DNA of 34,676 nucleotides from Defluviitaleaceae bacterium (GTDB taxonomy: Bacteria > Bacillota_I > Bacilli_A > MOL361 > Turicibacteraceae): the NCBI GenBank assembly GCA_009778135.1, contig WRKJ01000089.1:1-34676 (forward strand), given 5' to 3'. Position numbers and translations under genes: made by a program. The notes under the pieces are model-generated. The model did no database searches. It had not been told where the DNA came from and was given only the letters and a program-made list of their open reading frames with translations. This document shows, in pieces, positions 5,582-22,900 of the stretch (within the stretch, counting starts at the first letter, position 1; every line of letters starts with the position of its first letter).

Positions 5582-5681
5582 ACTTCGAAGACGTACTGCT
5601 TGTCAGGCGTCGGGAAAAAAATTCTCCCAGCTTTTATGCTGCTAGGTTTTCAGTCAGTACTCTTGTACTGACTGTTTTTTT
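5582..5681 (+). ncRNA. Structured small RNA convergent with the Abi_2 gene (abiF-RNA-like candidate)
   Basis: A predicted transcript of about 100 nt, running from an extended -10 promoter to a strong intrinsic terminator. Hairpins can be read in order: GACG/CGTC (from 5590), GGGA/TCCC around 5611-5627, CAGC/GCTG around 5628-5640, and the terminator stem. There is no start codon with a ribosome site. The last 28 bases lie antisense to the 3' end of the Abi_2 gene. A conserved RNA motif named abiF has been described next to Abi_2-family genes, and AbiF-type HEPN toxins are reported to work with a partner RNA. That this RNA belongs to that class is inference from position and structure. Confidence 0.6.
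5651..5681 (+). terminator. Intrinsic terminator of the plus-strand RNA
   Basis: A perfect 10-bp stem CAGTCAGTAC/GTACTGACTG closes a TCTT loop and is followed by seven T residues on the plus strand. The same DNA encodes the last residues and stop codon of the Abi_2 protein on the minus strand, so the two 3' ends overlap. Confidence 0.88.
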
Positions 5682-6424
5682 ATTTTTTGAAACCTCTTTG
5701 CATTATTTATCATATTTTTCAAGTAAATTTCAAGATTAATAGTACGCTCTACCCGAAACAACCAATAAATAATCATAATTCTCTTTCTCTGATTTAAATC
5801 AATTTTATTCACATTACCGTAAATCAAATAAATATTTAGGGGTCTTGGATGAAGCAAAGCATTATTTCGCAGATGATTAATTTCATATAACCGGTTTTCT
5901 TTTTTCAAAAAATCCCAATCTGAAATAATTTTTAAATAAATTTCTCGTTCATTCTTACTTATCCAAACCAATAAATATACAAGCTCACCAAAAGTCATTT
6001 TTGGAATGTATTGCCATGTTTGCTTAAGATTATAGTCAAAGCACTTTTTAGCACTTTTAATCTTTTGCTTTAATTCATTTTTCTTATCTGCTGTCAACGT
6101 ATTCGATTCAATAAGTTCGCTAACATAATAAGCAGTTTTCGCATTAATTCCTCGTTCAAAGCGAATGAAATTAATCATCAAATGTTCGCTTAATCTACAA
6201 TCCAATTCAAAATATGAAACCCAATCTTCAAACAAACTTGGTTCATAAATATACTTTCCATCCATGCCTTTAGACTTTGCAAACTTCACTTTACCGCAAG
6301 TGGTCAAGTGATAATAGTTGCTCTTTAAAAGCACCTCTTTCACTAGCTGTTCGTTTTCAATTATCACCCCTTTATCCCTGAGACGCTTAATTTGAAAAGC
6401 TAAAGATTTAAACTTCTTTCCCAT
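5654..6424 (-). CDS. Abi_2-family (AbiD/AbiF-like) HEPN abortive infection protein
   Basis: 256 residues. The N-terminus (SLAFQIKRLRDKGVII, then LLKSNYYHLTTCGKVKF) matches the Abi_2 pattern. In the C-terminal half, LRNNALLHPRPLN holds the HEPN ribonuclease signature R-N-x4-H (R186, H192). Members are RNA-cleaving abortive-infection toxins that halt phage growth by damaging host or phage RNA. The ribosome site GGAGGTG lies eight bases before the ATG. The upstream sequence is a decayed group II intron fragment rather than an obvious promoter, so the gene may depend on transcription from the toxin-antitoxin genes or array 2. The codons are more A-rich than in the cas genes, consistent with separate acquisition. 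Its 3' end overlaps the terminator of the opposite-strand RNA. Confidence 0.85.
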   Translation of the reverse strand: MGKKFKSLAFQIKRLRDKGVIIENEQLVKEVLLKSNYYHLTTCGKVKFAKSKGMDGKYIYEPSLFEDWVSYFELDCRLSEHLMINFIRFERGINAKTAYYVSELIESNTLTADKKNELKQKIKSAKKCFDYNLKQTWQYIPKMTFGELVYLLVWISKNEREIYLKIISDWDFLKKENRLYEINHLRNNALLHPRPLNIYLIYGNVNKIDLNQRKRIMIIYWLFRVERTINLEIYLKNMINNAKRFQKIKKQSVQEY

Positions 6425-6438
6425 TGAAAATCACCTCC

Positions 6439-6600
6439 TCCACACCGTGCGTGCGACCTTCACGGCACACGGCGTTCCATTTTATAATCTGCCTTTCGTT
6501 CCTAACAGTTTCAGTTAATCTATTCGGCGTGCAAACACTTTCGTATTAGCGCTCTGGCGCGCCAACCCCACACATCTTACCGGATACTCCGAATTTCAAC
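6439..6600 (-). mobile_element. Group II intron remnant (domain III to domain V-like), no reverse transcriptase
   Basis: Read on the minus strand, 6441-6478 forms a long hairpin starting GGAACGCCGTGTG and ending GCACGCACGGTGTG. This matches the layout of group II intron domain V of the CGC-triad (class C-like) kind. Just upstream are GTTAGGAACGAAAGGC (near 6494-6510) and ATCCGGTAAGATGTGTGGGG (near 6570-6590), phrases I associate with domain III and neighbouring parts. Domain I and the intron-encoded protein are absent, and the domain V tip carries a C where a pairing G is expected. This looks like a dead fragment immediately upstream of the Abi_2 gene. The call rests on remembered motif similarity, not on a covariance search. 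Confidence 0.5.
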
Positions 6601-6637: not shown

Positions 6638-7093
6638 CTACATCATTATTCCTTCTAAAAAAGAAATCAAAATATTGCCCGAGTGCTCATAATAAAAGCT
6701 ACTATTATAATCATCAATTTTTTCGCTAACAAAAGAATGATAAGCTAGAAATAAAGCATCAATTAAATCGATATTTTTCTCCCTCGCGATTCCTAGAATA
6801 AGTCTTTTATAAACTTTCCCAATATCCCAATGGGTAGGGATCCCATACATACAAGCACCCACATTATCAAAATTTCCATTTGTCAGATTGACATCCTTAA
6901 TGAAATCGTCACTAACTTTATCAATACTGTCACTGTGATACACATCTGCCAAATCATATAGTTTTTGAATTTTTTCTTTTCCAAGTGCGTTAACAACATC
7001 CTTACGATGATTCTTTGTTTTCCTTGCGATATAGTCAATCAAGCTACAAACATAGAATAAATCATTGGAACTTTTTTCTTCTCGACCCTTCAT
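6638..7093 (-). CDS. DUF3791-type protein, putative antitoxin partner of DUF3990
   Basis: 151 residues from the ATG chosen here. GGAGG lies seven bases upstream, and the ATG overlaps the preceding stop as ATGA, which indicates translational coupling. Residues of about 5-60 (NDLFYVCSLIDYIARKTKN, then VVNALGKEKIQKLYDLADVY) match the short DUF3791 family. The C-terminal part (THWDIGKVYKRLI, then KIDDYNSSFYYE) resembles the extension often fused to it. DUF3791 genes are habitually paired with DUF3990 genes, which suggests a toxin-antitoxin-like pair, although which partner neutralises which is not shown by sequence. The pair lies between array 2 and the Abi_2 gene. Confidence 0.75.
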   Translation of the reverse strand: MKGREEKSSNDLFYVCSLIDYIARKTKNHRKDVVNALGKEKIQKLYDLADVYHSDSIDKVSDDFIKDVNLTNGNFDNVGACMYGIPTHWDIGKVYKRLILGIAREKNIDLIDALFLAYHSFVSEKIDDYNSSFYYEHSGNILISFLEGIMM

Positions 7094-7551
7094 GATACAA
7101 CCTCCGCTTTTCGAAATTCTAAACATTTTAGCGCTGCTTCAGTACAAAAATTGATTTGATGCGCCGGGTATTTAAACTTTGCCATACTCCAAAACTGATC
7201 TCTTGTCACAATCCCCTCTATATAATCTTCGATAAAATTATAAATCTGATCATCAGCCATTGCACCAATCACAATGTCATATTGATGTTTTTTACCATTC
7301 CTGCAATCAATAATGAAATCTAGCCATGCTTCAGTCATTTGTTTAAACTCTAAAATGTTCAAAGATGTATTAATCCGAACATCATAAATATTAAGCGTTG
7401 GCGTACTAAGTCGCTTTGCCCAATGCGCAGCTTGCTCCTTGATTAATGTGCAATAAAATCCCGATCCAAAATCTTTTGTATATGGACCCATTATAATTTC
7501 CGGCTCCGTTATTTCAGGATAACTACCGTGATAAACTGTCATTTTTCCCAT
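7090..7551 (-). CDS. DUF3990 protein, ADP-ribosyltransferase-like toxin candidate
   Basis: 153 residues. The N-terminus MTVYHGSYPEITEPEI, then YTKDFGSGFYCTLIKEQA, is the DUF3990 hallmark. The early YHGS and the DFGSGFY turn resemble the NAD-binding elements of ADP-ribosyltransferase folds. AGAGGTGA precedes the ATG. It begins 70 bp after the leader-distal end of array 2, in the same direction and with no terminator between, so long pre-crRNA transcripts could read into it. Together with the overlapping DUF3791 gene it forms a compact two-gene module. The toxin role is inferred from the family, not from direct evidence. Confidence 0.75.
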   Translation of the reverse strand: MGKMTVYHGSYPEITEPEIIMGPYTKDFGSGFYCTLIKEQAAHWAKRLSTPTLNIYDVRINTSLNILEFKQMTEAWLDFIIDCRNGKKHQYDIVIGAMADDQIYNFIEDYIEGIVTRDQFWSMAKFKYPAHQINFCTEAALKCLEFRKAEVVS

Positions 7552-7621: not shown

Positions 7622-9378
7622 ATTTCAATCCGCGCACCCATGAAGGGTGCGACGAAAAGACGCACGGACAAACGAGAGCTTTAAGTATTTCAATCCACGC
7701 ACCTATGTAAGGTGCGACCTATCAATTAATCTCAAATGATCACCGAAACGGGATTTCAATCCACGCACCTATGTAAGGTGCGACGACGAATTGATATTCA
7801 GAAGAGTTTAAAACGACGATTTCAATCCACGCACCTATGTAAGGTGCGACTACCGTCAATCAATGTACTACCGTAACCCTTGATATTTCAATCCACGCAC
7901 CCATGAAGGATGCGACCGGTGGTGGTAGCATTATCTTAAAAGAAATGCTTATTTCAATCCACGCACCCATGAAGGATGCGACGATTCCTAATACTTAGAA
8001 AGGAGGCGTAGTTCATGATTTCAATCCACGCACCCATGAAGGATGCGACAAATGATCGTCGTCACATCAAACATCAAGAATATAATTTCAATCCACGCAC
8101 CCATGAAGGATGCGACAGGTCTGGGTTAAAGATGATTAGGATAGAGCTTGATTTCAATCCACGCACCCATGAAGGATGCGACACTCATGCATTTTTCAAG
8201 TTTCAACACACGTTGATTTCAATCCACGCACCCATGAAGGATGCGACATGTAGGTTCTGTAATTCCAGATTCCCATTTTTATTTCAATCCACGCACCCAT
8301 GAAGGATGCGACTTTTGTTGTAAATATTGGTGTACCAAACGGAAAGGATTTCAATCCACGCACCCATGAAGGATGCGACCTTTACCCTTATAGGCGCTGT
8401 CAACTCCCATATAATTTCAATCCACGCACCCATGAAGGATGCGACGTTGGTCGCTCAGTGATTTGCTGAATGCCTTGCTTATTTCAATCCACGCACCCAT
8501 GAAGGATGCGACCATAGAACTGTCCGAAACAACACTAGAATTAAGTATTTCAATCCACGCACCCATGAAGGATGCGACGTTCAGTTTAAAAGCTTAGTGT
8601 TGCGGATCGAGAAATTTCAATCCACGCACCCATGAAGGATGCGACTGGCCAATTGTCACGCTCAGAAGATGAGATGGCGATTTCAATCCACGCACCCATG
8701 AAGGATGCGACTGTCACATGCAGGAGCAACAGAGCAATTTGTGTTATTTCAATCCACGCACCCATGAAGGATGCGACAGCGGGATCAACATGTTAAAAAC
8801 ATTGCTACCTCCATTTCAATCCACGCACCCATGAAGGATGCGACCGTCCTCACCTTCGTAGTCTAGTGTTGCCTCTTCGAATTTCAATCCACGCACCCAT
8901 GAAGGATGCGACAAACCCTTTCGGGTTCTTTAAGTTTTGATTATCTTATTTCAATCCACGCACCCATGAAGGATGCGACTAACTCTTCCATTTTCTACCT
9001 CCTTAGATTTTGAATTTCAATCCACGCACCCATGAAGGATGCGACCAACTGTGCGTGCTTTAGACCCACAATTTTAGGAGATTTCAATCCACGCACCCAT
9101 GAAGGATGCGACTGATCAGCGACTCGTTAGAGTTGTCTTGAATTTAATTTCAATCCACGCACCCATGAAGGATGCGACCCTTCTTTGCTTCTAGGGATGG
9201 TTTTTTATTTTCCATTTCAATCCACGCACCCATGAAGGATGCGACCATGAAAAACATTATAGAATCGACGGTCATAGAAGATTTCAATCCACGCACCCAT
9301 GAAGGATGCGACATTCGCCCTCTTTTTCTTTCATTTCTTGGACCAAATTTCAATCCACGCACCCATGAAGGATGCGAC
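7622..9378 (-). CRISPR. CRISPR array 2 (type I-C-like repeats) beside the Cmr operon
   Basis: 27 repeats of 32 bp and 26 spacers of 32-35 bp. The 23 leader-proximal copies (7885-9378) share one sequence, differing from array 1 at two positions. The three repeats at 7687, 7753 and 7819 have a different variant (ACCTATGTAAGG on the plus strand), and the terminal one (7622-7653) is a third form with CCGCGC. In RNA of the minus strand all variants keep the 7-bp stem: the variant at 7687-7850 swaps a C-G pair for U-A, and the main variant uses one G-U wobble. On the plus strand the main variant would have an A-C mismatch, so the minus strand is the transcribed one. The leader lies at the right end, next to cmr6. 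Confidence 0.97.
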
Positions 9379-9574
9379 TGCGATTTTAAGCGCTTACTCA
9401 TCTATTTCAAGCATAAGAACACATAAATTCAACTGCTTATTATTCATTTTACCACAATATTTTAAATTTTTCACGATAAACCACCTATTTTTTTAGTGCG
9501 AATCCCTCAGAGTTTTCATGTGAGCCACCCATTCGCACCAAAAAATGCTCATTCGTTTATTTGAAAAATTAAGC
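9379..9574 (-). promoter_or_regulatory. Leader of CRISPR array 2 with promoter and conserved hairpin
   Basis: A homologue of leader 1. The promoter is -35 GTGAAA (9469-9474), 17 bp, -10 TAAAAT (9446-9451). The hairpin arms lie at about 9492-9503 and 9531-9542, with an 8-bp perfect core GTGCGAAT/ATTCGCAC; the pair outside this core is G-U when read as minus-strand RNA but A-C on the plus strand. The loop contains the same core as leader 1 (CAGAGTTTTCATGTGAGCC on the plus strand). The stretch adjoining the first repeat (TGCGATTTTA) is also identical in both leaders. Confidence 0.85.
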
Positions 9575-10642
9575 CTATTTTCCCAATCCATATCCTAATG
9601 CTGTTTTGGCGCCAATGCCACAAAAACTAAAGGCTTCTTTTAAACCATCTTCAATTTTTTCTCGACATTCACTCCAAATTTTAGCATCTCTACACGCTAC
9701 ATACACGTCAAAACATGCACCTGTTACAACTGGAAATGTAATAATATTCGTATCTTGATCATCAGTAGGCGCCATCTGACCGTTACTGTTGTAGTAATCC
9801 TTATAATGCGGTGTCATCACATCAAAACTAATTTCAAATTTACTGCCCTTGGGAAAAGTATCAAAGAAAATAAGTTGTGACTGACTTGGTTTTTTATCGT
9901 CTTCGCTTCCAAATAGTCGATTTCGTTCATCTTTGTTTAACCTATGAGTGACACCTTCTAATCCTTCAATTTGCTCGAAATAACTTCTCAACATTCCCTT
10001 TATCGCAGTCGCCGGTAAGTAAGGCACCCCATACAGTGGATGAAGCGTCATAAGCAATAACGAATCATAAGGTGATTCGCCACCCATCCCAATGATAAGC
10101 TTATCAAGAAGTTTAAACTGATGGTAAGCCGGATTCTCACCTATGTCACAAGCTTTAGCTAGATCGGTGGTTCGTTTTGCTAATTGAAAACTTGAAGTAG
10201 ATTTTTCGTTTATTTCACAAGGCTTCGGACGGGGTAATTTTTCTTTCATAACAGGATCTTTAATCTCACTTAAGGACGGTTGTTTAGCAGCTTTAAGAAA
10301 GCTTTCTGGCTTAAGTAATTTAGAATTTCTTTCATGATAAAATTGAAGTGAATACTTATGATGGAGCAAATATAAATTATCAACTTCTAATTTTTCAGCT
10401 TTGAAAAAAAACTTTCCCATACTTTTAGGTAAATTGATTTCAAATTTTGAATCAGATGATTTCTCATTTTCAATCTCTTGAGATTGTTGTGTAGCCTTCG
10501 CTTCTTGCATCACTCTTCTTTCTTCCCTCCGTTTCTCGTTTGTCGGTTTACCTAAGCTTTGTGATGATGTATTTTTATATGGGTTCTCTAATTGTTTTTT
10601 CAATCCACTGACCTTTCGTTCTAACTCACTCGGATCCATCAT
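9575..10642 (-). CDS. cmr6: Cmr6 RAMP subunit of the type III-B effector complex
   Basis: 355 residues. Cmr6 sits at the 3' end of the crRNA in the Cmr complex. The RAMP core runs from about residue 165 (GENPAYHQFKLLDKLIIGMG, then LPATAIKGMLRSYFEQ) to the C-terminal glycine-rich loop GIGAKTALGYGLGK. The first 160 residues are longer than I expect for the family and are rich in Lys, Glu, Gln and Ser (KRREERRVMQEAK), probably disordered or coiled. The gene overlaps cmr5 by 17 bases. Two adjacent ATG codons exist at 10642 and 10639 with AAGGA just upstream; the first is used here. It is the last gene of the cmr operon, followed by leader 2. Confidence 0.93.
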   Translation of the reverse strand: MMDPSELERKVSGLKKQLENPYKNTSSQSLGKPTNEKRREERRVMQEAKATQQSQEIENEKSSDSKFEINLPKSMGKFFFKAEKLEVDNLYLLHHKYSLQFYHERNSKLLKPESFLKAAKQPSLSEIKDPVMKEKLPRPKPCEINEKSTSSFQLAKRTTDLAKACDIGENPAYHQFKLLDKLIIGMGGESPYDSLLLMTLHPLYGVPYLPATAIKGMLRSYFEQIEGLEGVTHRLNKDERNRLFGSEDDKKPSQSQLIFFDTFPKGSKFEISFDVMTPHYKDYYNSNGQMAPTDDQDTNIITFPVVTGACFDVYVACRDAKIWSECREKIEDGLKEAFSFCGIGAKTALGYGLGK

Positions 10643-11252
10643 CCTTACTCAACATCCCTTCCGCAAAGCGTTTAATCCATTGGGTGTAAACCATTACTTC
10701 TTTTGTGACCATGCGATACTTATCTCGAGGCAATTGAACGATAGCTTCTAATAGATCGCTTGGATCACTTTCTTTGCCATTTAATTCATTTTTACTAATT
10801 GATATTCTACTGACAGGCTGATCACTTTCATCAAGTATCAGCCAATCTTTCAAAATTTCATAAAATAAATTATGCTGATTTTCACCTTTTTTTTCGACAT
10901 CATCCTCTTTTTTAACCTTTAAAAAGGCAATCGTTGCAGATAGACCGTTATTATGAACCATAGTTGGAAAGCTTCTTGCCAAGCTTCGAAAATCTTTTTG
11001 AATGTTTGGATAATTTTCTAATACATATTTAACTTTATCATATGCAGCCTCTGTTCGTTTATCATTAACCTCAGCAACTCTCCTCTTTTTGGTATTTTCA
11101 TTTTTACTGGTATCTTCTTTAGTATCGATAGGCGATCCAGTAACCGTTAGTCTTTCTGGAGCGATTTGACTTTTATTTGATGATTCTTTCGGTTTCTTAC
11201 TATAGGGATAGCTTGTCTTCTGATGTCCCTTTTTTTTATTTGTTTTTGCCAT
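10626..11252 (-). CDS. cmr5: Cmr5 small subunit of the type III-B effector complex
   Basis: 208 residues. The helical Cmr5 core occupies residues of about 63-208 (KRTEAAYDKVKYVLENY, then LARSFPTMVHNNGLSATIAFL, and the C-terminal MVYTQWIKRFAEG). Cmr5 (Cas11-like) lines the inner filament and contacts the target RNA. The first 60 residues are a lysine-rich, low-complexity extension (MAKTNKKKGHQKTSYPYSKK) not expected in the family, perhaps a nucleic-acid-binding tail. It overlaps cmr4 by 17 bases and cmr6 by 17 bases. Confidence 0.9.
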   Translation of the reverse strand: MAKTNKKKGHQKTSYPYSKKPKESSNKSQIAPERLTVTGSPIDTKEDTSKNENTKKRRVAEVNDKRTEAAYDKVKYVLENYPNIQKDFRSLARSFPTMVHNNGLSATIAFLKVKKEDDVEKKGENQHNLFYEILKDWLILDESDQPVSRISISKNELNGKESDPSDLLEAIVQLPRDKYRMVTKEVMVYTQWIKRFAEGMLSKDDGSE

Positions 11253-12258
11253 TTTTCACTGCCTCCTTCTCCCAACGAATTTTAAACAACCCTTTCCCAT
11301 GAGTTGTATTGCCACCAATTTGCAATAGCCTCTCGTGTAGCAGACAGCTCATCTCGCTTTCAATATCAATCACTTTCATTTTTCCTTCTTTAACTCGCTC
11401 ATCAGTCAGAAATAATAAACTGTACAAGATACTTTCAGGTGGTAAGTATTCCTCTGTAAAAAGTGCGCCTTTTTCTTTATCTACAACCCCCGTATCAGAG
11501 TTAATTCTAATTCGTGTATTAACCTCCGTCGAATGTTTCACAAAATATTCAAAATCGGCATCTGGTATCATAATTACACGCTTTTTAAACTCTGAACATT
11601 CAATCAAAGATTTACTCGAATCATTAGGAAAAGGTTTAGGGAAATACGATGCGACAGCTTCAACCCATTTATTAAATCCCTCACACTGATCAGGCATAAA
11701 ATCAAATTCTTCAAGAACAACAATGTCTTTATCACTATGTAATTTTAAAATAGAAGTAAGAGTTTGGCACGAGCGATTTTCATCACTGAAATCAAAGCCA
11801 TTCAATGCACCTGCTAACGTATTAAATCCTAGTAGTTGACAGTCTTGTTGAAAACGTCGCATTACCATCGGACACGTAACCCATGCGAACACCCCTTTTG
11901 CTGATTTGACTGGGAAAAATAAAATACGCGCATCGGAAATCGCAACTGCTGAAGCTTGCTCACCTGTATCTGAACTACCAAGTAGTCGCTTTGTTCGTGG
12001 ATATTTTTCTAAATCCTTTTCGCTTTCCCCTTCTTCACCTATAGTCACTGTGCTTGACTCTTGTGAAGAACGTTGCTTATCTTCTTCTTTCGTCATCGTT
12101 TGACGAATGCTTCCTTTCAAACTTGATGCTTCAATCTTTGGAAAGCCTGTATGTTTTTCTCGTTGAATCGGTAAATCAATATAACTTAACGTATCTCCCG
12201 TCCCTACGTGTGATGAGGTTAAACCATATAACATCATTAATCGTTTTTCTTCAAACAT
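11236..12258 (-). CDS. cmr4: Cmr4 RAMP backbone subunit with target-RNA cleavage site
   Basis: 340 residues from the ATG at 12258, chosen because the encoded start MFEEKRLMMLYGLTSSHVGT fits the family and a purine-rich site precedes it. The sequence HVGTGD, then IDLPIQREKHTGFPKIEASS, then LKGSIR is the classic Cmr4 N-terminus; D28 in IDLPIQRE corresponds to the aspartate that cuts target RNA at 6-nt intervals. The C-terminal glycine-rich loop is GGNTTHGKGLF. Target RNA slicing therefore looks intact. It overlaps cmr3 by eight bases. Confidence 0.94.
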   Translation of the reverse strand: MFEEKRLMMLYGLTSSHVGTGDTLSYIDLPIQREKHTGFPKIEASSLKGSIRQTMTKEEDKQRSSQESSTVTIGEEGESEKDLEKYPRTKRLLGSSDTGEQASAVAISDARILFFPVKSAKGVFAWVTCPMVMRRFQQDCQLLGFNTLAGALNGFDFSDENRSCQTLTSILKLHSDKDIVVLEEFDFMPDQCEGFNKWVEAVASYFPKPFPNDSSKSLIECSEFKKRVIMIPDADFEYFVKHSTEVNTRIRINSDTGVVDKEKGALFTEEYLPPESILYSLLFLTDERVKEGKMKVIDIESEMSCLLHERLLQIGGNTTHGKGLFKIRWEKEAVKNGKNK

Positions 12259-13579
12259 TCTTTTCCAACTCCTCAATTATTTTCTTATCAACAGCACCAA
12301 CTAATGCATAGCCCAGGCCACGATCACAATAAATCAAGCGGTCAAAGACTTGCTTTGGTCGATTAAACTGATAAGCCTCTTGCTTCTTTTTAGAATCAGT
12401 TCCTTTATAAGATCCCTCACGATAATCACTTAAACATCGTCTATGAAATAGCTTCTTTGCTTTTTCAAAATCCCCTTCTCGATAGTTGAGAATTTCAAAA
12501 TAGTAAACACTGCCTGCTGGAATGGCATAACGTAACGCTTTAGGTTCTTTCCCATGCGGATCAAAACCACCGATTAATTCTGGTTTTCCAACGGCTGCTG
12601 CGATTAGCTTGAGTTCCAATTTTTTCTCTACTACTCTGTCTTGCTTCTTTTTTCGATAAGAAAACTTCCCTGTCAAAGTTTTTTGATTATCAATCCAAGA
12701 TGGATACCAACCATGCTCAAAAATAGCAGGTGTAGCAAAGTAGAGCTTAAAAAACTTAGATTCATCATTTGGTGCTAGAGATTCCAGAAATTCTGGTTGA
12801 TCTAATTTTTCAACTTGTACCATTTTCCCTTCACCACCCAGTTTCACATGAGCTTGATCAATCGCAAGTTTTTCTTCACCTTTGTATTTAGAACTGGCTT
12901 CGACAATCAACTGCAATCCTTCCTTTGGTCGAACCATTTCAATTTGATAAAGTTGGCCCTTTTTGGTCTGACCTGTTTCAATATCAGTCCCAATTCCTAT
13001 TTTTCGTTCTTTCGACAGGTAATCCTTCAAATCAAAAAGTTTGCTACCATCAGTATCAACAGCATGTTTTGATTCCTTTTCCTGCTTAAATTCAAGGTGT
13101 CTATTACCATTTAAATACTTCTCTAGTGAAGTTTGATTCATATACCAATCAGCACTTGATTTTGTCTTTTTAAATTCAGTTTCTGGGAATAAACAGACAG
13201 GTAGCGCTTCGTGCATATTCGATTCGGGTCGTGGAGTAAGTTTCATTGTTTCAAGGATAAAAGTTGTTGCTTTATTGCCATTAGTATCTTCAGTATCAGA
13301 CTTACAACCTGAAGTATTTCTCACATCCTTCTGATCAAATACGATTGTATCTAACGGTTGTGGAAAACAAATGTCTAATTTTTCCCTGTCATTTAAAGCA
13401 ACACCATTAAAACCAATCCGCAGTCGTTTTCTTTGCTCGGCATCTTGAGCCAACATTTGAAACGCACCACCGTATGTATTTGGATAAGGTGGAAATTGGC
13501 ATGGAAAAAGTTGTGACCCTTCAAAAGGAACGCTAGAACGGAAGAAAAGCTGATCCACCGCTTTTACTTGATAAAACAT
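12251..13579 (-). CDS. cmr3: Cmr3 subunit (Cas5-like) of the type III-B effector complex
   Basis: 442 residues. The start MFYQVKAVDQLFFRSSVPFE, then FPPYPNTYGGAFQML, is typical of Cmr3, the Cas5-like protein that with Cas10 holds the 5' handle of the crRNA. A second family block (ATPAIFEHGWYPSWID) and the C-terminal RGLGYALVG loop are present. It overlaps the cmr2 stop by one base (TAATG). Nothing unusual is seen apart from a large, charged central region (about 130-240) rich in Lys and Glu. Confidence 0.92.
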   Translation of the reverse strand: MFYQVKAVDQLFFRSSVPFEGSQLFPCQFPPYPNTYGGAFQMLAQDAEQRKRLRIGFNGVALNDREKLDICFPQPLDTIVFDQKDVRNTSGCKSDTEDTNGNKATTFILETMKLTPRPESNMHEALPVCLFPETEFKKTKSSADWYMNQTSLEKYLNGNRHLEFKQEKESKHAVDTDGSKLFDLKDYLSKERKIGIGTDIETGQTKKGQLYQIEMVRPKEGLQLIVEASSKYKGEEKLAIDQAHVKLGGEGKMVQVEKLDQPEFLESLAPNDESKFFKLYFATPAIFEHGWYPSWIDNQKTLTGKFSYRKKKQDRVVEKKLELKLIAAAVGKPELIGGFDPHGKEPKALRYAIPAGSVYYFEILNYREGDFEKAKKLFHRRCLSDYREGSYKGTDSKKKQEAYQFNRPKQVFDRLIYCDRGLGYALVGAVDKKIIEELEKNV

Positions 13580-15372
13580 TAACTGTCACCTCCTTGATGA
13601 ATAATGGCATTGCTCGCCAGAAATCTAACCATATCCAATGTATTAAGAAAGTTATCAACACTTTCCGACTTGTGGTAAAAAATTTCTATTCGCTCCAACA
13701 CCTTACCTTTTAACTCATCACTCTTAAACGATTGTCGCCCCAGACCAGCCTTAATCAACACTTTAATCATCTCCCAACTGGCATCTTCTGGCAGTTGCTC
13801 AACTAATCCAATCATCGTTGTTAAAAAAGATTTTGAATAAGCCTCTTCTTCTAAATCCGCAAGCATTTTTCTAAAATCATCCAATGCCTTGTACTGCTTT
13901 GTATGATCAAAGCCATAACGAATCTCTCGATATTCCCCTGCCCGCTTCATTAGTTTAATCGCAAAAGCATTTTTCCCTGGATATTTTTTGGCATAACCTT
14001 CTGCCTGATCCAACTGATACATCACATCTTTTAATGGTTCCATTAAATGAGCCACGACAATTCCAGCTGAAAACGTGATCTCAGGTTGCCCATCTATTTT
14101 CACTTGCTTTCTAAAAGTACAATGCAGTTTTTCTAAAATTGACCAAATCTCCTCTAAAGGTAATGCCGCTAAAATATCTTCACCACCTGCATAAATACAA
14201 ATGCCACCGACATTTTTAATCAGCTCACTCGCTTCAATGGCAAATTTACAAATTTTGCTACTTAAATCTTCGTGTTCATCTTGTTTAGCAAATTTACGGT
14301 ATACCTCTCCCATGGAATCTCCATCGAATTTCAGCATGGCGTAATAAGATTTTAATTTTAGGTTAGGAATATCTGCTTTTATTTGTTTGATAATACTTTT
14401 AGCTTCTTTAATTGCAGCTGTATTTGTTACTTGTGGCGAAGAAACGAGCTGTGGATAATGGTCAAAAATAGCATCAATGATACTCGTAATCTTACCCGCT
14501 CTATGTACTTCCTTTTCATCAACACAGCCATCAACATAATCTTCATACCAACTTGGATTCTCGGGATAATCACAAGCCAATCGCTTCCTAAATACCATAT
14601 CCCGATGAGAGTAAAGAAAATGCTCAGTTTTTTCATAAAACCTTTTAACAAAAGCAATCGCCGATAATGTTTCATCATCTTGAACGAGATAGTCAAATTT
14701 CGCAATATCAGGCAGTTGATAGGTGCTACCTTCATCCAGAAAAGCTTTCTTTTCTTTGTAAAACAAGGCATTATACTCAAGATGTAACCCACATTTTCTT
14801 CCTCCTGATTCAAACGTTTGTTTGAAAGGACGAAGATTTTTAATCGACATCAAATTTTTATTAAGCTGTTGATAAACCTCACCATACTCTCGTATCTTGC
14901 CATCTTTTTCAAAAGGTTCAAATGTCCAATAAACTTCTAAAAAAGACTCAATTTGCTGTGTTGCCCACGGTTGTGACCACGCCTTCCCGCCTTTTTCAAG
15001 AGCAAGGACATTTTCTTTAGGTTGTTCTGAACACCCTTCTAAAATCTCTAAACAAAGTGACTTAAATTTTTCCCTAACTTTTTTCTCTATATCTTTTGCA
15101 TCAGCCACTATATCCCGCTTCTCACCATTGGTACAATCTTCTTCAACACTTATCACCAAACGATTAGGGTAACTCCTTACTGTTGTTTGATCCATATCAA
15201 GTAGATGGGGGAAAACAAGCTCAAAGCCCTTTAGGCCTTTGACACACTCCATCGCATACGCCGTCAAGTCAGACAAAATTGAACTCCCCGCATATAAATC
15301 CCGCATTTTTCGACCATTGTTAACGAAAGACTTAACTGGTCCAATGGTGAATGTAAACAAAGCCTTACTCAT
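13579..15372 (-). CDS. cmr2: Cmr2/Cas10 large subunit, no HD domain, GGED palm motif
   Basis: 597 residues from the ATG at 15372, which has AGGAGGT eight bases upstream; an upstream in-frame extension inside the DUF1016 gene is rejected. The N-terminus FTFTIGPVKSFVNNGRKMRD is the usual palm-1 start, so the HD DNase domain is absent. The palm-2 catalytic region shows FDGDSMG (349-355) and YAGGEDILA, with GGED at 396-399 in place of the usual GGDD. Cas10 normally makes cyclic oligoadenylate on target binding, which activates CARF effectors; no CARF gene is visible here. An acidic pair is kept, so cyclase activity is possible but uncertain. It overlaps the DUF1016 gene by eight bases. Confidence 0.92.
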   Translation of the reverse strand: MSKALFTFTIGPVKSFVNNGRKMRDLYAGSSILSDLTAYAMECVKGLKGFELVFPHLLDMDQTTVRSYPNRLVISVEEDCTNGEKRDIVADAKDIEKKVREKFKSLCLEILEGCSEQPKENVLALEKGGKAWSQPWATQQIESFLEVYWTFEPFEKDGKIREYGEVYQQLNKNLMSIKNLRPFKQTFESGGRKCGLHLEYNALFYKEKKAFLDEGSTYQLPDIAKFDYLVQDDETLSAIAFVKRFYEKTEHFLYSHRDMVFRKRLACDYPENPSWYEDYVDGCVDEKEVHRAGKITSIIDAIFDHYPQLVSSPQVTNTAAIKEAKSIIKQIKADIPNLKLKSYYAMLKFDGDSMGEVYRKFAKQDEHEDLSSKICKFAIEASELIKNVGGICIYAGGEDILAALPLEEIWSILEKLHCTFRKQVKIDGQPEITFSAGIVVAHLMEPLKDVMYQLDQAEGYAKKYPGKNAFAIKLMKRAGEYREIRYGFDHTKQYKALDDFRKMLADLEEEAYSKSFLTTMIGLVEQLPEDASWEMIKVLIKAGLGRQSFKSDELKGKVLERIEIFYHKSESVDNFLNTLDMVRFLASNAIIHQGGDS

Positions 15373-15973
15373 CACTAGCCACCTCCTTGCTGTTTTTTTC
15401 CAGCTGTTCAAATAGCAAACTTCGCAACTCAGCAACATTTGGCAAATACAACTGATATTTTGCTACAAATAAGTTAGAATCCATGTCATAGGTTGCATAT
15501 TGAACCATGACATCATCTTTATCAGCACCTAAAACAATGCCAATAGGTGGATTGTCCCCTTCATTGGTTTTATCTATAGCAAAGTAACCAAGATACAAAT
15601 TCATTTGCCCAATGTCTTCATGTCTAACCGCACCGATTTTCAACTCAATAATCACATAGCGTTTAAGCACCACATGGTAAAAGACCAAATCAGCAAAATA
15701 ATCACGGTTATCAATGGTCATCCGATACTGCCGACCCATAAAAGCAAAGCCACGACCAAGTTCAAGTAAAAATTCTTCCAAATGTTTAATCAATTGGGCT
15801 TCTAACGTTTTTTCAGAATAGTTTTTCTTAGTCCAATGCGTCTCAACCAGTTGCTTATTCACCGCCATTGCAACTTTACTTCGGCCTTCTTTTGTAATGT
15901 CAGAAATTCTTTGCACAAGCGCTAAGTAGCCAGCTTCACGATCTGGAATAGATAGCTCATTTTCTACTTTCAT
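15365..15973 (-). CDS. Shortened DUF1016/YhcG-type PD-(D/E)XK nuclease inside the cmr operon
   Basis: 202 residues from the ATG at 15973, supported by GGGAGG seven bases upstream. Residues 53-180 match the C-terminal nuclease domain of DUF1016 proteins: EFLLELGRGFAFMGRQY, a metal aspartate in DYFADLVFYH (D95), E-x-K in YVIIELKIG (E110, K112) and Q123. The first 47 residues (YLALVQRISDITKEGRSKVA) resemble the start of the DUF1016 N-terminal domain, which normally runs on for roughly 150 more residues before the nuclease. That middle portion is missing here, with no frameshift. The active site looks intact, and the gene overlaps both cmr1 and cmr2, so it is translated with the complex. A role as a Cmr accessory nuclease is inference. 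Confidence 0.85.
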   Translation of the reverse strand: MKVENELSIPDREAGYLALVQRISDITKEGRSKVAMAVNKQLVETHWTKKNYSEKTLEAQLIKHLEEFLLELGRGFAFMGRQYRMTIDNRDYFADLVFYHVVLKRYVIIELKIGAVRHEDIGQMNLYLGYFAIDKTNEGDNPPIGIVLGADKDDVMVQYATYDMDSNLFVAKYQLYLPNVAELRSLLFEQLEKNSKEVASDE

Positions 15974-16994
15974 GATTGGCCTCCCTTCCTTCAATCAGCT
16001 CAATAAATCTGTTCCATTCTGTAGTAGCATCAAGCAATTTGCCATCAACTACTGGCTTTACGAACGTATAAATCGGTAGAAGCCCTTCTTTAGTATCAGC
16101 TACACCAACAATAATTGATGAAGCAAATCTTGGACTTGCATCTCCTGTAGCAAATTTCCATCCTTTATCATTTTTAACTTTTGATTTCAAAGAATTTCCT
16201 CGTGAATCTTTCAAAACCTTAATCTTATGTAAGGCATCGTCAACAGATTTCAAAAAACCTTTCCAATCCCACGTTCCATTCTTTTGCTTCGTAGTTCTTA
16301 ATTTCCCGAATTGAACCTTTTCAATGACAGGACGATTGATATTTTTAAAATTAAATTGAGACTTGATTATTTTTCCATCAAGTTCATAAGATCTTTCTTC
16401 AGCAATTACATTTAAATGATTTAAAATCTTTGTTTTTATTTCATCTGAGCTTAGTTTTTCATTGCTAAAAATCTGTGCACGACCACGACCTTTTCGACTA
16501 CGTTGACCAAGACCCATCAGCATAAATGAAAGTTCAAGTAAACTTTCATAAAAATGCATATTTTTGGACGACTCTGATTTAAAACGAAGGCTCATTCTCA
16601 AGGTGAACGTATTAACTTGCTTCTGTTTGTTTTGTGGCAAGATGGCATCTTTGTTAAATTTATTTTTGTGAAAAAGAAATGAGGTTGATTCTCCTTTAAG
16701 CGCTTTTGATACAATTGCCAACCTAATCGGAGATACATGCTTTTGGGCATCACCGAATAATTCGCTTTCTTTTTTTAATAACTCATCACTTGATATAAGA
16801 GATTGTGCAATACGCCACATATACCGCATCATGCCTTTAATTGAAGCAGGACGGATTTCTGGTGTTTTTTGATCTGCACCGTAGGAAAAAATAGGTGTTA
16901 TCACTTTAAAAGGCATATTATAAGGCATATTATTTGGATTCTTAGTGTGATCATTAGTGGTTACTTCACAAATCGCAACTTCTTCATTCTTCAT
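15957..16994 (-). CDS. cmr1: Cmr1 RAMP subunit of the type III-B effector complex
   Basis: 345 residues from the ATG at 16994; GGAGG lies 11 bases upstream. Cmr1 caps the 3' end of the complex. The family features are FKVITPIFSYGADQ, then EIRPASIKGMMRYMWRIAQ, and the glycine-rich loop GLGQRSRKGRGRAQ. The start overlaps the end of the DUF6602 gene by 11 bases, and its stop overlaps the DUF1016 gene, so all belong to a single transcription unit led by cas3. Confidence 0.92.
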   Translation of the reverse strand: MKNEEVAICEVTTNDHTKNPNNMPYNMPFKVITPIFSYGADQKTPEIRPASIKGMMRYMWRIAQSLISSDELLKKESELFGDAQKHVSPIRLAIVSKALKGESTSFLFHKNKFNKDAILPQNKQKQVNTFTLRMSLRFKSESSKNMHFYESLLELSFMLMGLGQRSRKGRGRAQIFSNEKLSSDEIKTKILNHLNVIAEERSYELDGKIIKSQFNFKNINRPVIEKVQFGKLRTTKQKNGTWDWKGFLKSVDDALHKIKVLKDSRGNSLKSKVKNDKGWKFATGDASPRFASSIIVGVADTKEGLLPIYTFVKPVVDGKLLDATTEWNRFIELIEGREANHESRK

Positions 16995-17916
16995 CTGCTT
17001 TCTCACCTCCACTAACTTTCGAACCAGCTCCTAACCCTTCGTTAAACATCTTCACATAAGCTCGGTGTGGGAACAAAATAGGATTGTTAATGATCATCAA
17101 CAGTTGATTTAGTTGAAAATTAAAAGTTAATAATGAAATTTCTTCATCATCCTTTTTAACCACATAATTTTGTAACTTATACTTTGAAAGATCTACAACT
17201 GGAATATGTGAGAGACCGGCTTCATTTCCAGGAGAATTTAAATATTTATGCCATTGTTCCAATGTCCAATCTTGATTTTTACTTTTAATTTGAAGGTAAG
17301 ATTTTACATCAGTTTTTTTAGCAATGATTTTAAAATCAAAATTTGCTGTAGTCCCTGATAAACCACAAAATATCTTTAATGGTTTTGTCTTTTTCTGAGT
17401 CGGAGGCAACTCTGGGAAGTTTAGAGCCGTTCTAGCAATTCCTCTTCCATCAGTCTTTAAATCATCAATCCTATCAATCCATGCTTCCAAATCTTCTTTC
17501 TTACTACCAGTACTTTTACATTCCACCACCGCTGCAACTGCTTCAATGGGAACAAATTTCAATTTACCATATCGAAAAATATATGGTGTATACATTTCAT
17601 CAATAATCGCTAAATCCACTTCATTAGAAACTCCAGTCAAATCCTTATCGCTATCATCATAAAAATTCGAATCAATGATAAAAACCGAAGATTCAATAAC
17701 AAACTTCTTCGGAACAATTTGCTCAAACATCCTACACCAAATGTCTTCTCTCGCACTACCAGCTGTCGTTGGATGCAGATCATGCGCCATATATAGCTGG
17801 TCCACAATCGAACGCTCTAAATTTTGATAATTGTTAGCAATATTGCTAATCAACCGCTTCTTATTGTATTGGATACCGTTATCCTTAGCAACCTGCTCTG
17901 TAATTTTCTCACTCAT
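16984..17916 (-). CDS. DUF6602-type protein with PD-(D/E)XK-like core, encoded between cas3 and cmr1
   Basis: 310 residues from the ATG at 17916, preceded by AAGGAG with eight bases of spacing; 22 bases separate it from the cas3 stop. The conserved block is LHPTTAGSAREDIWCRMFEQ, then IVPKKFVIESSVFIID, EVDLAIID, YTPYIFRYG and FVPIEAVAAVVECKS. D101 in EVDLAI and E132-x-K134 in VVECKS are spaced like a PD-(D/E)XK nuclease site. Proteins of this family occur in defence loci, but no activity is established to my knowledge. Overlap with cmr1 places it in the cmr transcript. It could be an accessory nuclease of the type III-B system or an independent defence gene that has joined the operon. Confidence 0.7.
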   Translation of the reverse strand: MSEKITEQVAKDNGIQYNKKRLISNIANNYQNLERSIVDQLYMAHDLHPTTAGSAREDIWCRMFEQIVPKKFVIESSVFIIDSNFYDDSDKDLTGVSNEVDLAIIDEMYTPYIFRYGKLKFVPIEAVAAVVECKSTGSKKEDLEAWIDRIDDLKTDGRGIARTALNFPELPPTQKKTKPLKIFCGLSGTTANFDFKIIAKKTDVKSYLQIKSKNQDWTLEQWHKYLNSPGNEAGLSHIPVVDLSKYKLQNYVVKKDDEEISLLTFNFQLNQLLMIINNPILFPHRAYVKMFNEGLGAGSKVSGGEKADEE

Positions 17917-17938
17917 TCTAAAATCTCCTTTCGCTTCG

Positions 17939-20230
17939 TCAATAAAATATGCCATCTGCACGGTATTCAAAATCCACTTTTAATCCTGATTCATCACAGT
18001 AAGCGTCTAAATCTGTTAGCACAATCACCCCTTCTACGTTTTCAAAAATGCGTTCTTCATCTAGCTTGTTGTACTCATATATGGGAATGGTCACACTAAA
18101 AGACCCTAATTTACGGTATAGCGATTTGGATATTCCCGTATTCTTTAGCTGATGAAGCAACTTGTCAGCTTCTTTATCTTTTGGAATAAAAATGGTTTTC
18201 GTGTTACCACTTTCGATTAACTTAAAATCATTGGAAATGTCTTCAAATTGAATATAAAGTTTTTGAAGTCGATCAACGATCCCTTCAGTCGGATAATCTT
18301 TTGTCTTTTTATCCAAGCTATCACCTTTTGTCTTGTACAAATAATCAAAGTAGGCTTTAATCTGCTCAGGCGAACCCATTTCAAAACCTTTGCTCAAAGC
18401 ATTGTCAGTCGCGGAAAGGTTAAGGGCTAATCCTCTTGGAGGCTTCACTTCTTCTGGATCGGGTTCAAACATATAAACTTTAGAAGTTTCTAACGCCCGT
18501 TTCCCTTCTCTATTACAGCGCCCACCTGCTTGGATCACGCTATCTAACCCAGCCTTCGCCCGATAGACAATAGCAAAATCTACATCAACCCCTGCTTCAA
18601 TAAGGCTAGTGGAAATCACTTTTACAGGTTGTCCCGCTGCTAAACGTTTTTTAATCTCAAGTAACTGCTGTTTCCGATGTTCAGGATACATCAAAGTGGA
18701 TAAATGATAGTTAAACTCCCCTTCTAAGCCAGCAAAAAGTTCTCTGGCATGTTGTCGTGAATTTACAATACATAAAACCTGCGTCTGCCCATTTAATTTT
18801 TCTAACAGCTGTGCATTGTTTAACACGCCTGCGTCCTCGTAAGTGACGCGTTTCAACTTGTCATACAATGCTTTAAAATTCTCACAAATTTCGATTGGTG
18901 CTTTGGAACCCTCGGGAAAAACCAAATTTAACGACGGTTGGGTTGCCGTACATAAAACAGCTGTCACTTCATAATTTCTAATGAGTTCCTCAATGGCATA
19001 CACACACGGTTTTAAATAATCAGTGGGAAGCATTTGCGCTTCATCAAAAATAATCACACTGTTGGAAATGTTGTGAAGCTTTCTTGTTTTAGACGTTTGA
19101 TGGGAAAACAATGACTCAAAAAACTGAACATTGGTTGTCACAACAATCGGAATATCCCAATTTTCTGCTGCTAGATACTGATAACCTGCTGACGTGTCTT
19201 CATTATCATAATCAGCATTGCTATGATTTTCCAAGACATTTCTTTTGATCATTTTCCCATTGGCATCTTTTACGTCAAATATATCCGAAAAAACCTGGGC
19301 ATTCTGCTCGATGATGCTTGTATAAGGGATAACATAAATAATCCGATCCATCTGATGCTTTTTTGCATGATTAAGGGCAAATGCCATGGACGATAGCGTC
19401 TTGCCGCCACCTGTTGGAACAGTTAAAGAATAAAGACCCTTTTCCCCTTTGGCTTTGTTGATGCAGCTTTGCAAAATGTCATTGCGGTATTGATTTAATC
19501 CCTTTATGTCCGTAAACTTTTCTAACTTTTGATTCAACCGCTCCAACAAAGTAGTCATGTCATCATGATCAGATCTACCGACATCACCTTTCATGAACTT
19601 TTCTGTATCCAAGTAATCCCCATCAACGAGACAAGAAAATAGCATTCGTGTTAAAAAAGAGTTTGAAAACGATTGCTGACCTTTCTTTTTAGCAGTGCAA
19701 ATAGGCTTCATTTTGGCACAAGCTTCCAGAAATGCTGAAGTCGGATTTTCAAGGTTCACTTCCGAGGCATAAGCATGAAAGTCACCAAAAACAAATTGAC
19801 CTTCACCAACATTTTTACTTTTCCTGGCGAAAACCGATCTTTTTTCATGACCAATATCAGCCGATTCGCCTTGATTTAACAAGCCACCATGATGACCAAA
19901 AATACAATTGGCTAATAAATCAGCAAGGGTTACGTCAGTTAACTTTTGCTCCCCTACCATGATCTCTATTAATTTTTGTCCCCCTGCTGTTGTATGATCA
20001 ACCTTGATGGAAGCCCCTCGCACGCGATCTTGGAACTCACAGGAATATTTACCAAGATCATGACACAACCCTAAAAACTCAGCCATCCGCTCCATTCCAA
20101 ACTTCGACGCAAATTCTCTCGCATATTTGGCCACACCTTGCAGATGATCTATTAATAACTGCTCCCGTAATACCTCACCTTCTGGCAGCTCCCCATCCCG
20201 ATCCTTATTTGTTCTCGCAATATAAGTCAA
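17939..20230 (-). CDS. cas3: Cas3 HD nuclease-helicase (type I)
   Basis: 763 residues, starting at a TTG with AGAGGTG upstream; later ATG codons would cut off the HD domain. HD-domain residues: DHLQ (29), CHDLGK (H57, D58), DHTT (H79) and GHHGG (113-114). Helicase motifs: Walker A VPTGGGKT (271-278), DEAQ (395-398) and the C-terminal QAGGRCNREG. Cas3 is recruited by Cascade to nick and degrade target DNA. The length and motif order are normal. It is led by a near-consensus promoter and followed at 22 bases by the DUF6602 and cmr genes rather than by cas5c, so the type I-C nuclease is transcribed with the type III-B complex. Confidence 0.95.
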   Translation of the reverse strand: MTYIARTNKDRDGELPEGEVLREQLLIDHLQGVAKYAREFASKFGMERMAEFLGLCHDLGKYSCEFQDRVRGASIKVDHTTAGGQKLIEIMVGEQKLTDVTLADLLANCIFGHHGGLLNQGESADIGHEKRSVFARKSKNVGEGQFVFGDFHAYASEVNLENPTSAFLEACAKMKPICTAKKKGQQSFSNSFLTRMLFSCLVDGDYLDTEKFMKGDVGRSDHDDMTTLLERLNQKLEKFTDIKGLNQYRNDILQSCINKAKGEKGLYSLTVPTGGGKTLSSMAFALNHAKKHQMDRIIYVIPYTSIIEQNAQVFSDIFDVKDANGKMIKRNVLENHSNADYDNEDTSAGYQYLAAENWDIPIVVTTNVQFFESLFSHQTSKTRKLHNISNSVIIFDEAQMLPTDYLKPCVYAIEELIRNYEVTAVLCTATQPSLNLVFPEGSKAPIEICENFKALYDKLKRVTYEDAGVLNNAQLLEKLNGQTQVLCIVNSRQHARELFAGLEGEFNYHLSTLMYPEHRKQQLLEIKKRLAAGQPVKVISTSLIEAGVDVDFAIVYRAKAGLDSVIQAGGRCNREGKRALETSKVYMFEPDPEEVKPPRGLALNLSATDNALSKGFEMGSPEQIKAYFDYLYKTKGDSLDKKTKDYPTEGIVDRLQKLYIQFEDISNDFKLIESGNTKTIFIPKDKEADKLLHQLKNTGISKSLYRKLGSFSVTIPIYEYNKLDEERIFENVEGVIVLTDLDAYCDESGLKVDFEYRADGIFY

Positions 20231-21749: not shown

Positions 21750-21780
21750 AAACAAGAAAACCAGATAACCTGCGTTATCT
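21750..21780 (-). terminator. Terminator overlapping the stop of the 44-residue protein gene
   Basis: AGATAAC (21774-21780 read on minus) pairs with GTTATCT (21763-21769) around a 4-nt loop, followed on the minus strand by GGTTTTCTTGTTTTT. The TAA stop codon of the small gene lies within the stem. The 7-bp stem is short, so read-through to the PTS promoter region is possible. Confidence 0.6.
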
Positions 21781-21909
21781 AGTTTCATCCTCTTCTTGGG
21801 CACCAATGACTGCAAGCCATGCACAAATGATGGTTAGCGCTAAAACGAAGCCCATTGTGAAACCAACGACTTTCATTAATATGGAATGTTCGGTTCTTCT
21901 CATTTTCAT
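21775..21909 (-). CDS. Small membrane protein, 44 residues
   Basis: The frame starts at ATG 21909 (or 21903) with TTAGGTGG just upstream and reads MKMRRTEHSI, then a membrane segment of about 20 residues (VVGFTMGFVLALTIICAWLA), then a polar acidic tail ending GAQEEDETR. Basic residues before the segment and acidic residues after it predict an inside N-terminus and a tail outside. I do not recognise the family. A ribosome site, a single clean membrane helix and a terminator that begins at the stop codon together argue that it is a real gene. It is not in an operon with its neighbours. Confidence 0.6.
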   Translation of the reverse strand: MKMRRTEHSILMKVVGFTMGFVLALTIICAWLAVIGAQEEDETR

Positions 21910-22100: not shown

Positions 22101-22604
22101 TTATTTTCTAATCTGTTTTTTATCAAACACTTTACATGCTTCCATTGTTTGTTTGAGTGTTGTTTTCAATTCTCGCATTTCTTGTCTCGTTAAAGGTCTT
22201 CCTTTGTAAAGAATTTCTTTTGATCCATCATTGGTCACTTTAATCAAGTATTTCAACATTTGTTGAATATCTAATTTTTGATGCGTCGCTTTTGTTCTCA
22301 CTTTTTCATTTTCTACCGAATACGCGACACGTGCTTCTGCAATGATGTTATGCGGGAAGACATACTTACTCCCCGTCTCTTCGAATTCTTTTTCACCAAG
22401 TAAATAATTGATGCTGACACCGAAGTACTGTGCCACTTTTTGTAAATAAGCCACACTCGGCGATGAGTGAGACCACTTTGAAACAAGCCCATTTCCAAAC
22501 TCATTATCTCTTTCAAGTCTTCTCATTGAAATGCCATGTTCTTTGCATAAACTTCTAATTTTCGCCACTAGTTCTGATTCTACTTTTTCTTGAGCCACGG
22601 GCAT
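22101..22604 (-). CDS. XRE-family transcriptional regulator (helix-turn-helix)
   Basis: 167 residues from the second of two adjacent ATGs (22604); AAGGAG precedes both. Residues of about 12-70 form a lambda-repressor-type HTH (LVAKIRSLCKEHGISMRRLE, then LVSKWSHSSPSVAYLQKVAQ, then YFGVSINYLLGE). The remaining 100 residues are polar and helical (EILYKGRPLTRQEMRELKTT) and not recognised; they may bind a ligand or form the dimer. It is divergent from a perfect plus-strand promoter bracketed by a 12-bp inverted repeat, the likely operator. The likely target is therefore the small plus-strand transcript, with possible autoregulation. Confidence 0.85.
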   Translation of the reverse strand: MPVAQEKVESELVAKIRSLCKEHGISMRRLERDNEFGNGLVSKWSHSSPSVAYLQKVAQYFGVSINYLLGEKEFEETGSKYVFPHNIIAEARVAYSVENEKVRTKATHQKLDIQQMLKYLIKVTNDGSKEILYKGRPLTRQEMRELKTTLKQTMEACKVFDKKQIRK

Positions 22605-22624
22605 CATTCTCCTTTTGACTGCTC

Positions 22625-22688
22625 TTTTTTTCTACAAAGCATTGACAACCCGTTTTGTTTGATGTATAATGCATAGTGTAGAAAAAAA
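22625..22688. promoter_or_regulatory. Inverted-repeat operator bracketing a promoter
   Basis: TTTTTTTCTACA (22625-22636) and its exact reverse complement (22677-22688) form a 12-bp inverted repeat. They lie just upstream of the -35 and at the transcription start of the plus-strand promoter. A third copy, TTTTTCTACA, occurs at 22794-22803. The arrangement suits binding of the adjacent XRE dimer with looping or cooperative binding. Confidence 0.65.
22642..22670 (+). promoter_or_regulatory. Perfect SigA promoter divergent from the XRE gene
   Basis: TTGACA (22642-22647), exactly 17 bp, TATAAT (22665-22670). Transcription would start near 22677, inside the second operator arm. Confidence 0.85.
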
Positions 22689-22767
22689 TATGTGTCATAT
22701 ATTTTCTGCTGTCTTTGTTTGTTTTAATCAATGGCACAGTTAAAGGGCTTTTTAACTGTGCTTTTTT
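22677..22767 (+). ncRNA. Short terminated transcript (small RNA or micro-peptide mRNA)
   Basis: The transcript runs from a consensus promoter to a strong terminator, about 90 nt in all. It contains one small frame, 22690-22743, of 17 codons (MCHIFSAVFVCFNQWHS), whose TAA stop lies in the terminator stem. There is no good ribosome site before it, only an A-rich stretch. No gene follows on the plus strand within reach, so it is not an attenuator for a downstream gene. A regulatory RNA or a small hydrophobic peptide under XRE control are the two readings. Confidence 0.55.
22734..22767 (+). terminator. Strong intrinsic terminator of the short plus-strand transcript
   Basis: 11-bp perfect stem (GCACAGTTAAA at 22734-22744 with TTTAACTGTGC at 22751-22761), 6-nt loop, then six T residues. 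An A-run on the left side could let it also act on minus-strand transcription leaving dgkA. Confidence 0.9.
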
Positions 22768-22900
22768 AAATTGACTATCTAAATGATACGGCATTTTTCT
22801 ACAAATGTCAATAAATTATTAAAGAGATTGGGCTTTTTAAGCGAAGAAAATTTGAAACATCCCATCACTGTATCTTTTGCTGCATGTTATAAATGTTTTT

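Follow-up and report, generated by a model that had tools for sequence, protein, structure and literature searches.

The stretch of DNA analysed here (34,676 nt, hereafter the window) comes from contig WRKJ01000089.1 of assembly GCA_009778135.1, belonging to a gut bacterium, Defluviitaleaceae bacterium, that GTDB places in the Turicibacteraceae. Its minus strand carries a gene for a small XRE regulator (xre), whose neighbours are chromosomal genes of ybeY-dgkA type; no phage genes were found nearby in the window. Upstream of xre lie two facing promoters, three candidate operators and a predicted short RNA, as listed below, where identities refer to the one other genome found to hold this module (the sister genome).

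22101..22607, minus strand: xre gene, 168 aa, an ORF for a phage CI/Cro-like helix-turn-helix (HTH) regulator
22608..22777, minus strand: predicted 5′ leader of the xre mRNA, about 170 nt, from the position of the xre promoter and the start codon
22612..22618, minus strand: part of the xre Shine-Dalgarno region, TCAAAAGGAG, pairing -8.9 kcal/mol; 7/7 identical in the sister
22625..22636, plus strand: candidate operator 1, TTTTTTTCTACA, upstream of the antisense -35 box; 11/12 in the sister
22642..22670, plus strand: antisense promoter TTGACA-N17-TATAAT, consensus 12/12 (TTGACA 22642-22647, TATAAT 22665-22670)
22677..22688, minus strand: candidate operator 2, TGTAGAAAAAAA, at the predicted antisense transcription start; 9/12 in the sister
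22677..22768, plus strand: predicted antisense RNA, about 92 nt, with a 5′ hairpin, a U-rich single-stranded linker and a 3′ terminator hairpin; both ends predicted
22690-22743, plus strand: 17-codon frame MCHIFSAVFVCFNQWHS, its stop within the left stem arm of the terminator; judged not coding
22733..22768, plus strand: intrinsic terminator of the antisense RNA (hairpin 22733-22762, then a T run)
22783..22811, minus strand: xre promoter TTGACA-N17-TATCAT from a consensus scan, 11/12; -35 box 6/6 and -10 box 5/6 in the sister
22794-22805, plus strand: candidate operator 3, TTTTTCTACAAA, inside the spacer of the xre promoter; 10/10 in the sister over 22794..22803

Facing promoters and candidate operators

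The original prediction had placed here an exact TTGACA-N17-TATAAT promoter bracketed by a 12-bp perfect inverted repeat, and a transcript of about 90 nt with a 17-codon frame ending in the terminator stem. We recovered all of these elements, the promoter at 22642-22670 (+) and the repeat as operators 1 and 2 (22625-22636 / 22677-22688). The third operator that it described beyond the terminator is present as well, but what had been overlooked is that this copy sits within the likely promoter of xre, which at 22811-22783 (-) is the sole strong minus-strand promoter candidate upstream of the gene. The unit had also been described as having no downstream gene, and indeed no plus-strand gene follows it in either species; yet the predicted RNA (22677-22768, +) lies wholly inside the predicted xre leader (22777-22608), on the opposite strand. 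Once the minus-strand promoter holding operator 3 is recognized, the short RNA thus becomes antisense to the xre leader.

The start points of these facing promoters are separated by about 100 bp, their -10 boxes by 112 bp in the window and 116 bp in the sister, and both promoters carry operator copies. At the sequence level the arrangement is that of a cis-antisense RNA lying opposite an mRNA 5′ leader and equipped with a promoter and a terminator of its own, and the same holds in the sister. The sequence TTTTTCTACA occurs three times in the window when 0.33 occurrences are expected, a count of three being reached in 1 of 100 shuffles, and all three copies fall inside 180 bp. The exact TTGACA-N17-TATAAT arrangement is not unique to the locus: two further sites, where 0.03 would be expected, occur in the window at 21735-21707 (-), before a PTS EIIC gene, and at 32816-32788 (-), before an hrcA-like gene.

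Conservation in a sister genome

A close XRE was found in just one other genome, the Turicibacteraceae MAG Turicibacter sp. Lab288P1bin27 (70% identity), an isolate name that we take to mean a termite-gut sample. There, dgkA is followed by the identical module in identical order; in Turicibacter-type genomes the genes after dgkA look instead like cdd and era, as judged by eye from their translations, and the region is absent from the other family members examined. The sister retains the pair of promoters, the three operator copies, the stem and the overall layout. Its antisense promoter is again an exact TTGACA-N17-TATAAT (12/12), with hexamers and 17-nt spacing unchanged around a spacer sequence identical at 11/17 positions, while its xre promoter reads TTGACA-N17-TATTAT (11/12). 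Operators 1 and 2 both show an A to G change at the same position, and the operator 2 core TTCTAC is kept.

Conservation here means one pairwise comparison, the locus being held by two genomes only, and in it the elements named beforehand from the window alone were identical at 86/93 positions (92%) versus 105/190 (55%) in the remaining intergenic DNA (Fisher test, p=2e-11; p=7e-8 within 22620-22811 alone). Since promoters, operators and RNA structure were kept while other intergenic DNA stands at 55%, selection acts on them. The original prediction had staked itself on the promoter and hairpin being conserved beside the XRE gene, and both were kept, as were the operators, in the relative that has it; the option of a short regulatory RNA controlled by XRE is likewise supported at this level by the conserved promoter, operators and hairpins.

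In the sister, the terminator stem is identical at 10/11 positions of the first arm and 11/11 of the second, and the loop at 4/6. The single stem change leaves a U-G pair in the antisense strand, but in the sense strand it would disrupt the pair. The sister terminator was absent from the consensus-scan list and was read from sequence and folding; the scan probably missed it because the stem can extend into the T run. The antisense RNA folds into two hairpins in both species (z=-4.83 in the window, z=-5.74 in the sister), the first hairpin having a different 3′ arm in the sister and scoring, by itself, z=-2.38 in the window and -3.63 in the sister. On the sense strand of the sister the segment of this hairpin is unremarkable (z=-0.76), and over the whole region the sense strand reaches z=-2.63 versus -5.6 for the antisense strand. 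The sense strand of the window likewise folds well (z=-4.96) because the terminator stem is symmetric, and therefore it is chiefly the sister that favours the antisense strand. Taken from sequence, these patterns point to the antisense RNA as a selected molecule. A search of Rfam at this locus gave nothing at or above the gathering cut-off, the best matches being at chance level (E>=1.1). A stem between operators 1 and 2 in the xre leader, considered as a lock on the ribosome site, was discarded: it appears in the window fold and is absent from the sister's best fold.

The XRE protein and the search for a regulon

Comparison with PHROGs assigned XRE to phrog_8, transcriptional regulator (E=1.6e-15), by which it carries the N-terminal Cro/CI-type HTH of XRE regulators; the Pfam matches to HTH_3, HTH_26 and HTH_19 were weak and below the curated cut-off. 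Matches to phage repressors cover mostly the HTH part, for example 35% identity to a Listeria phage B025 protein over residues 16-121. Searches of 395 genomes of the class and 392 of the phylum returned no close XRE besides that of the sister, with HTH-part matches otherwise. No close phage or plasmid relatives were found, viral contigs gave no close match and one distant HTH match, and there was no match among solved structures. The C-terminal half of XRE has no assignment, and an AlphaFold2 model built from the two sequences was of too low quality for structure searches (pLDDT 55). We infer that xre is likely, by origin, a domesticated phage repressor.

A wider operator regulon was sought and dropped. 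Across the genome, TTTTTCTACRAA was found 8 times versus 11 for a reversed control pattern, that is, not above control, in a search that degenerate sites could escape; none of the copies outside the locus has a counterpart common to the sister, and patterns combining an operator with a -35 box were common to both genomes at this locus only. By these results the circuit acts mostly on its own genes and promoters.

Other features of the window

Downstream of xre lies a 44-codon ORF (21775-21909, -) that has a good Shine-Dalgarno sequence and a single hydrophobic stretch (MKMRRTEHSILMKVVGFTMGFVLALTIICAWLAVIGAQEEDETR), with a terminator after it. This membrane ORF was considered as a partner of xre and set aside: it is absent from 20 relatives and was found only in this genome among the 21 searched, and therefore stands outside the conserved module.

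Farther away, the window contains two CRISPR arrays, at 1-1353 (21 repeats) and 7819-9402 (24 repeats, counts by the finder), whose repeats differ by few bases (CCCATGTAGGGTGCGAC versus CCCATGAAGGATGCGAC), with cas4 and a type I-C-like gene set between them. Next come a Cmr (type III-B) set that includes Cas10, at 9575-17012, and a cas3 at 17939-20230; neither cas1 nor cas2 was noticed in the window. Inside the Cmr/cas3 operon, and overlapping their neighbours, are genes for a YhcG-type PDDEXK nuclease and a DUF6602 protein (15365-15994 and 16984-17970, -), possible accessory or defence genes. A DUF3990 gene overlaps a 162-aa ORF without Pfam match (6638-7551, -) between the cas operon and an array, and the two look like a toxin-antitoxin-type pair. 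A group II intron domain V-like match (6400-6477, -; 40.5 bits, cut-off 40) lies at the start of an Abi_2-like ORF (5654-6424), with no intron body or reverse transcriptase seen.

A proposed circuit and its alternatives

The reading that we consider probable is an autoregulatory pair of a phage-derived XRE and a cis-antisense RNA, in which xre is held down by the antisense RNA and by promoter interference, while both the RNA and XRE itself are repressed by XRE. Transcription, XRE binding and the direction of each effect we infer from the sequence, and the regulatory arrows from position. Under this model xre would be transcribed leftward from 22811-22783 with its leader of about 170 nt, while the consensus promoter within that leader (22642-22670) would fire rightward to give the two-hairpin, terminated RNA of about 92 nt, whose sequence is complementary to the leader's 5′ half. 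This antisense unit may lower xre through collision or occlusion of polymerases on the facing promoters, and also by pairing with the leader, leading to degradation or attenuation. With operators 1 and 2 flanking and overlapping the antisense promoter and operator 3 lying in the xre promoter, XRE should silence the RNA from the former pair and limit its own synthesis from the latter. The net result would be a double-negative loop of RNA and repressor with negative autoregulation added, although XRE could be an activator instead of a repressor.

An alternative is that the RNA acts in trans, repressed by XRE and pairing with other mRNAs through its U-rich linker, its overlap with the leader being incidental. 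In both species it is short and terminated, with a hairpin at its 5′ end and a U-rich linker that is single-stranded. However, a trans pairing region would be expected to persist, and the body of the RNA from operator 2 up to the stem, linker included, is among the least conserved parts (23/45 identical, 51%, at the background level); moreover, the xre promoter lies just past the terminator in both species, so that the entire RNA is within the leader. A cis-antisense RNA keeps its pairing automatically, and our model therefore predicts that the body diverges while the promoter and terminator persist. We regard a trans-acting RNA as unlikely. That convergent transcription alone matters, the RNA being a by-product of a sensor of polymerase availability like the helD rifampicin alarm, we hold to be quite improbable: the strong facing promoter and the antisense transcript of about 90 nt are as in helD/ashelD (PMC12802891), but the -10 gap of 112/116 bp departs from the 45-55 bp of the published motif, xre is a regulator gene and not one for rifampicin resistance, and the kept two-hairpin fold and operators are left unexplained.

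The small-peptide option of the original prediction, in which the RNA would be a tiny XRE-controlled mRNA whose 17 codons specify a hydrophobic toxin or a prgQ-like signal peptide, did not survive and was dropped. The frame MCHIFSAVFVCFNQWHS does begin 13 nt from the predicted 5′ end, but it has no Shine-Dalgarno sequence (0.2 kcal/mol versus -8.9 for xre) and no conserved peptide is found in the sister, which offers at best MFYFLLCLKYS or unrelated frames. By sequence it is best read as a chance frame, and a peptide role appears very improbable. Hardly credible, and the least probable of all, is a decayed phage immunity region with nothing functional left, xre being a cI remnant and the plus-strand promoter a former PR that has lost cro. 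The resemblance of XRE to phage repressors (phrog_8, Listeria phage B025) and a layout that recalls lambda cI/PR/PRE would fit, and the phage origin may be right; decay is not, for the promoters, operators and RNA structure were held while other intergenic DNA fell to 55%, and no phage genes lie nearby.

Returning to the autoregulatory pair, interference, antisense pairing and protein feedback can together yield two-state switching in models (PMC4519249). The locus might then be a stand-alone chromosomal memory switch of about 700 bp, in which a domesticated phage repressor and a leader antisense RNA repress one another and hold two heritable states with no other protein, an extension that we put forward tentatively and think rather doubtful.

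Comparison with known systems

The nearest working precedent is helD/ashelD. In Bacillus subtilis, helD/ashelD and pps have dual convergent promoters with a motif in which the -10 boxes are 45-55 bp apart, and ashelD is an antisense RNA of about 90 nt from a stronger promoter facing that of helD (PMC12802891). As in helD/ashelD, the promoter of the gene is faced, in a Gram-positive host, by an antisense promoter that lies within the 5′ untranslated region, with an RNA of similar predicted length (about 92 nt). The antisense promoter matches the consensus at 12/12 positions versus 11/12 for the xre promoter. The locus differs in encoding a DNA-binding regulator, with likely operators on both promoters and no rifampicin link, and its -10 distance (112 bp in the window, 116 bp in the sister) is outside 45-55 bp; therefore we do not file it as a helD-type member.

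In the copy control of plasmid pIP501, the small HTH repressor CopR and the antisense RNAIII jointly restrain repR (PMC4981023). The locus has in common with it a small HTH repressor, an antisense RNA to an mRNA leader and convergent transcription. However, repR is a third gene there, whereas the target here is the repressor's own mRNA, without a replicon, among chromosomal ybeY-dgkA type neighbours and with no close plasmid relative.

PrgX is a regulator of about 300 aa with C-terminal tetratricopeptide-like peptide-binding repeats. XRE, by contrast, has 168 aa, only weak Pfam HTH matches and no such repeats, which sets it apart from PrgX/RRNPP proteins. The prgX/prgQ switch of pCF10 in Enterococcus faecalis is cited in PMC4519249. 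It also sets an HTH regulator against a facing transcription unit, the two counteracting one another through interference, antisense RNA and repression, and it is bistable; here the facing unit is chromosomal, terminated at about 92 nt, and has no conserved peptide and no operon.

Phage 186 has face-to-face promoters, and in the lambda cI/PRE layout the repressor is transcribed through an opposing unit. The locus shares with these phages a repressor-like gene, facing promoters and repressor transcription through the opposing unit, but it has no cro or other phage genes and its opposing unit is a short terminated RNA. The phage 186 promoters are also cited in PMC12802891. Sharp or two-state switches are known to arise from facing promoters combined with an antisense RNA, the well-studied cases being in plasmids, phages and drug-response genes. 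The locus is a compact form of these known control circuits, a very small chromosomal version in which a repressor is combined with three likely operators and with an RNA antisense to the repressor's own leader, and whose conserved parts are separable.
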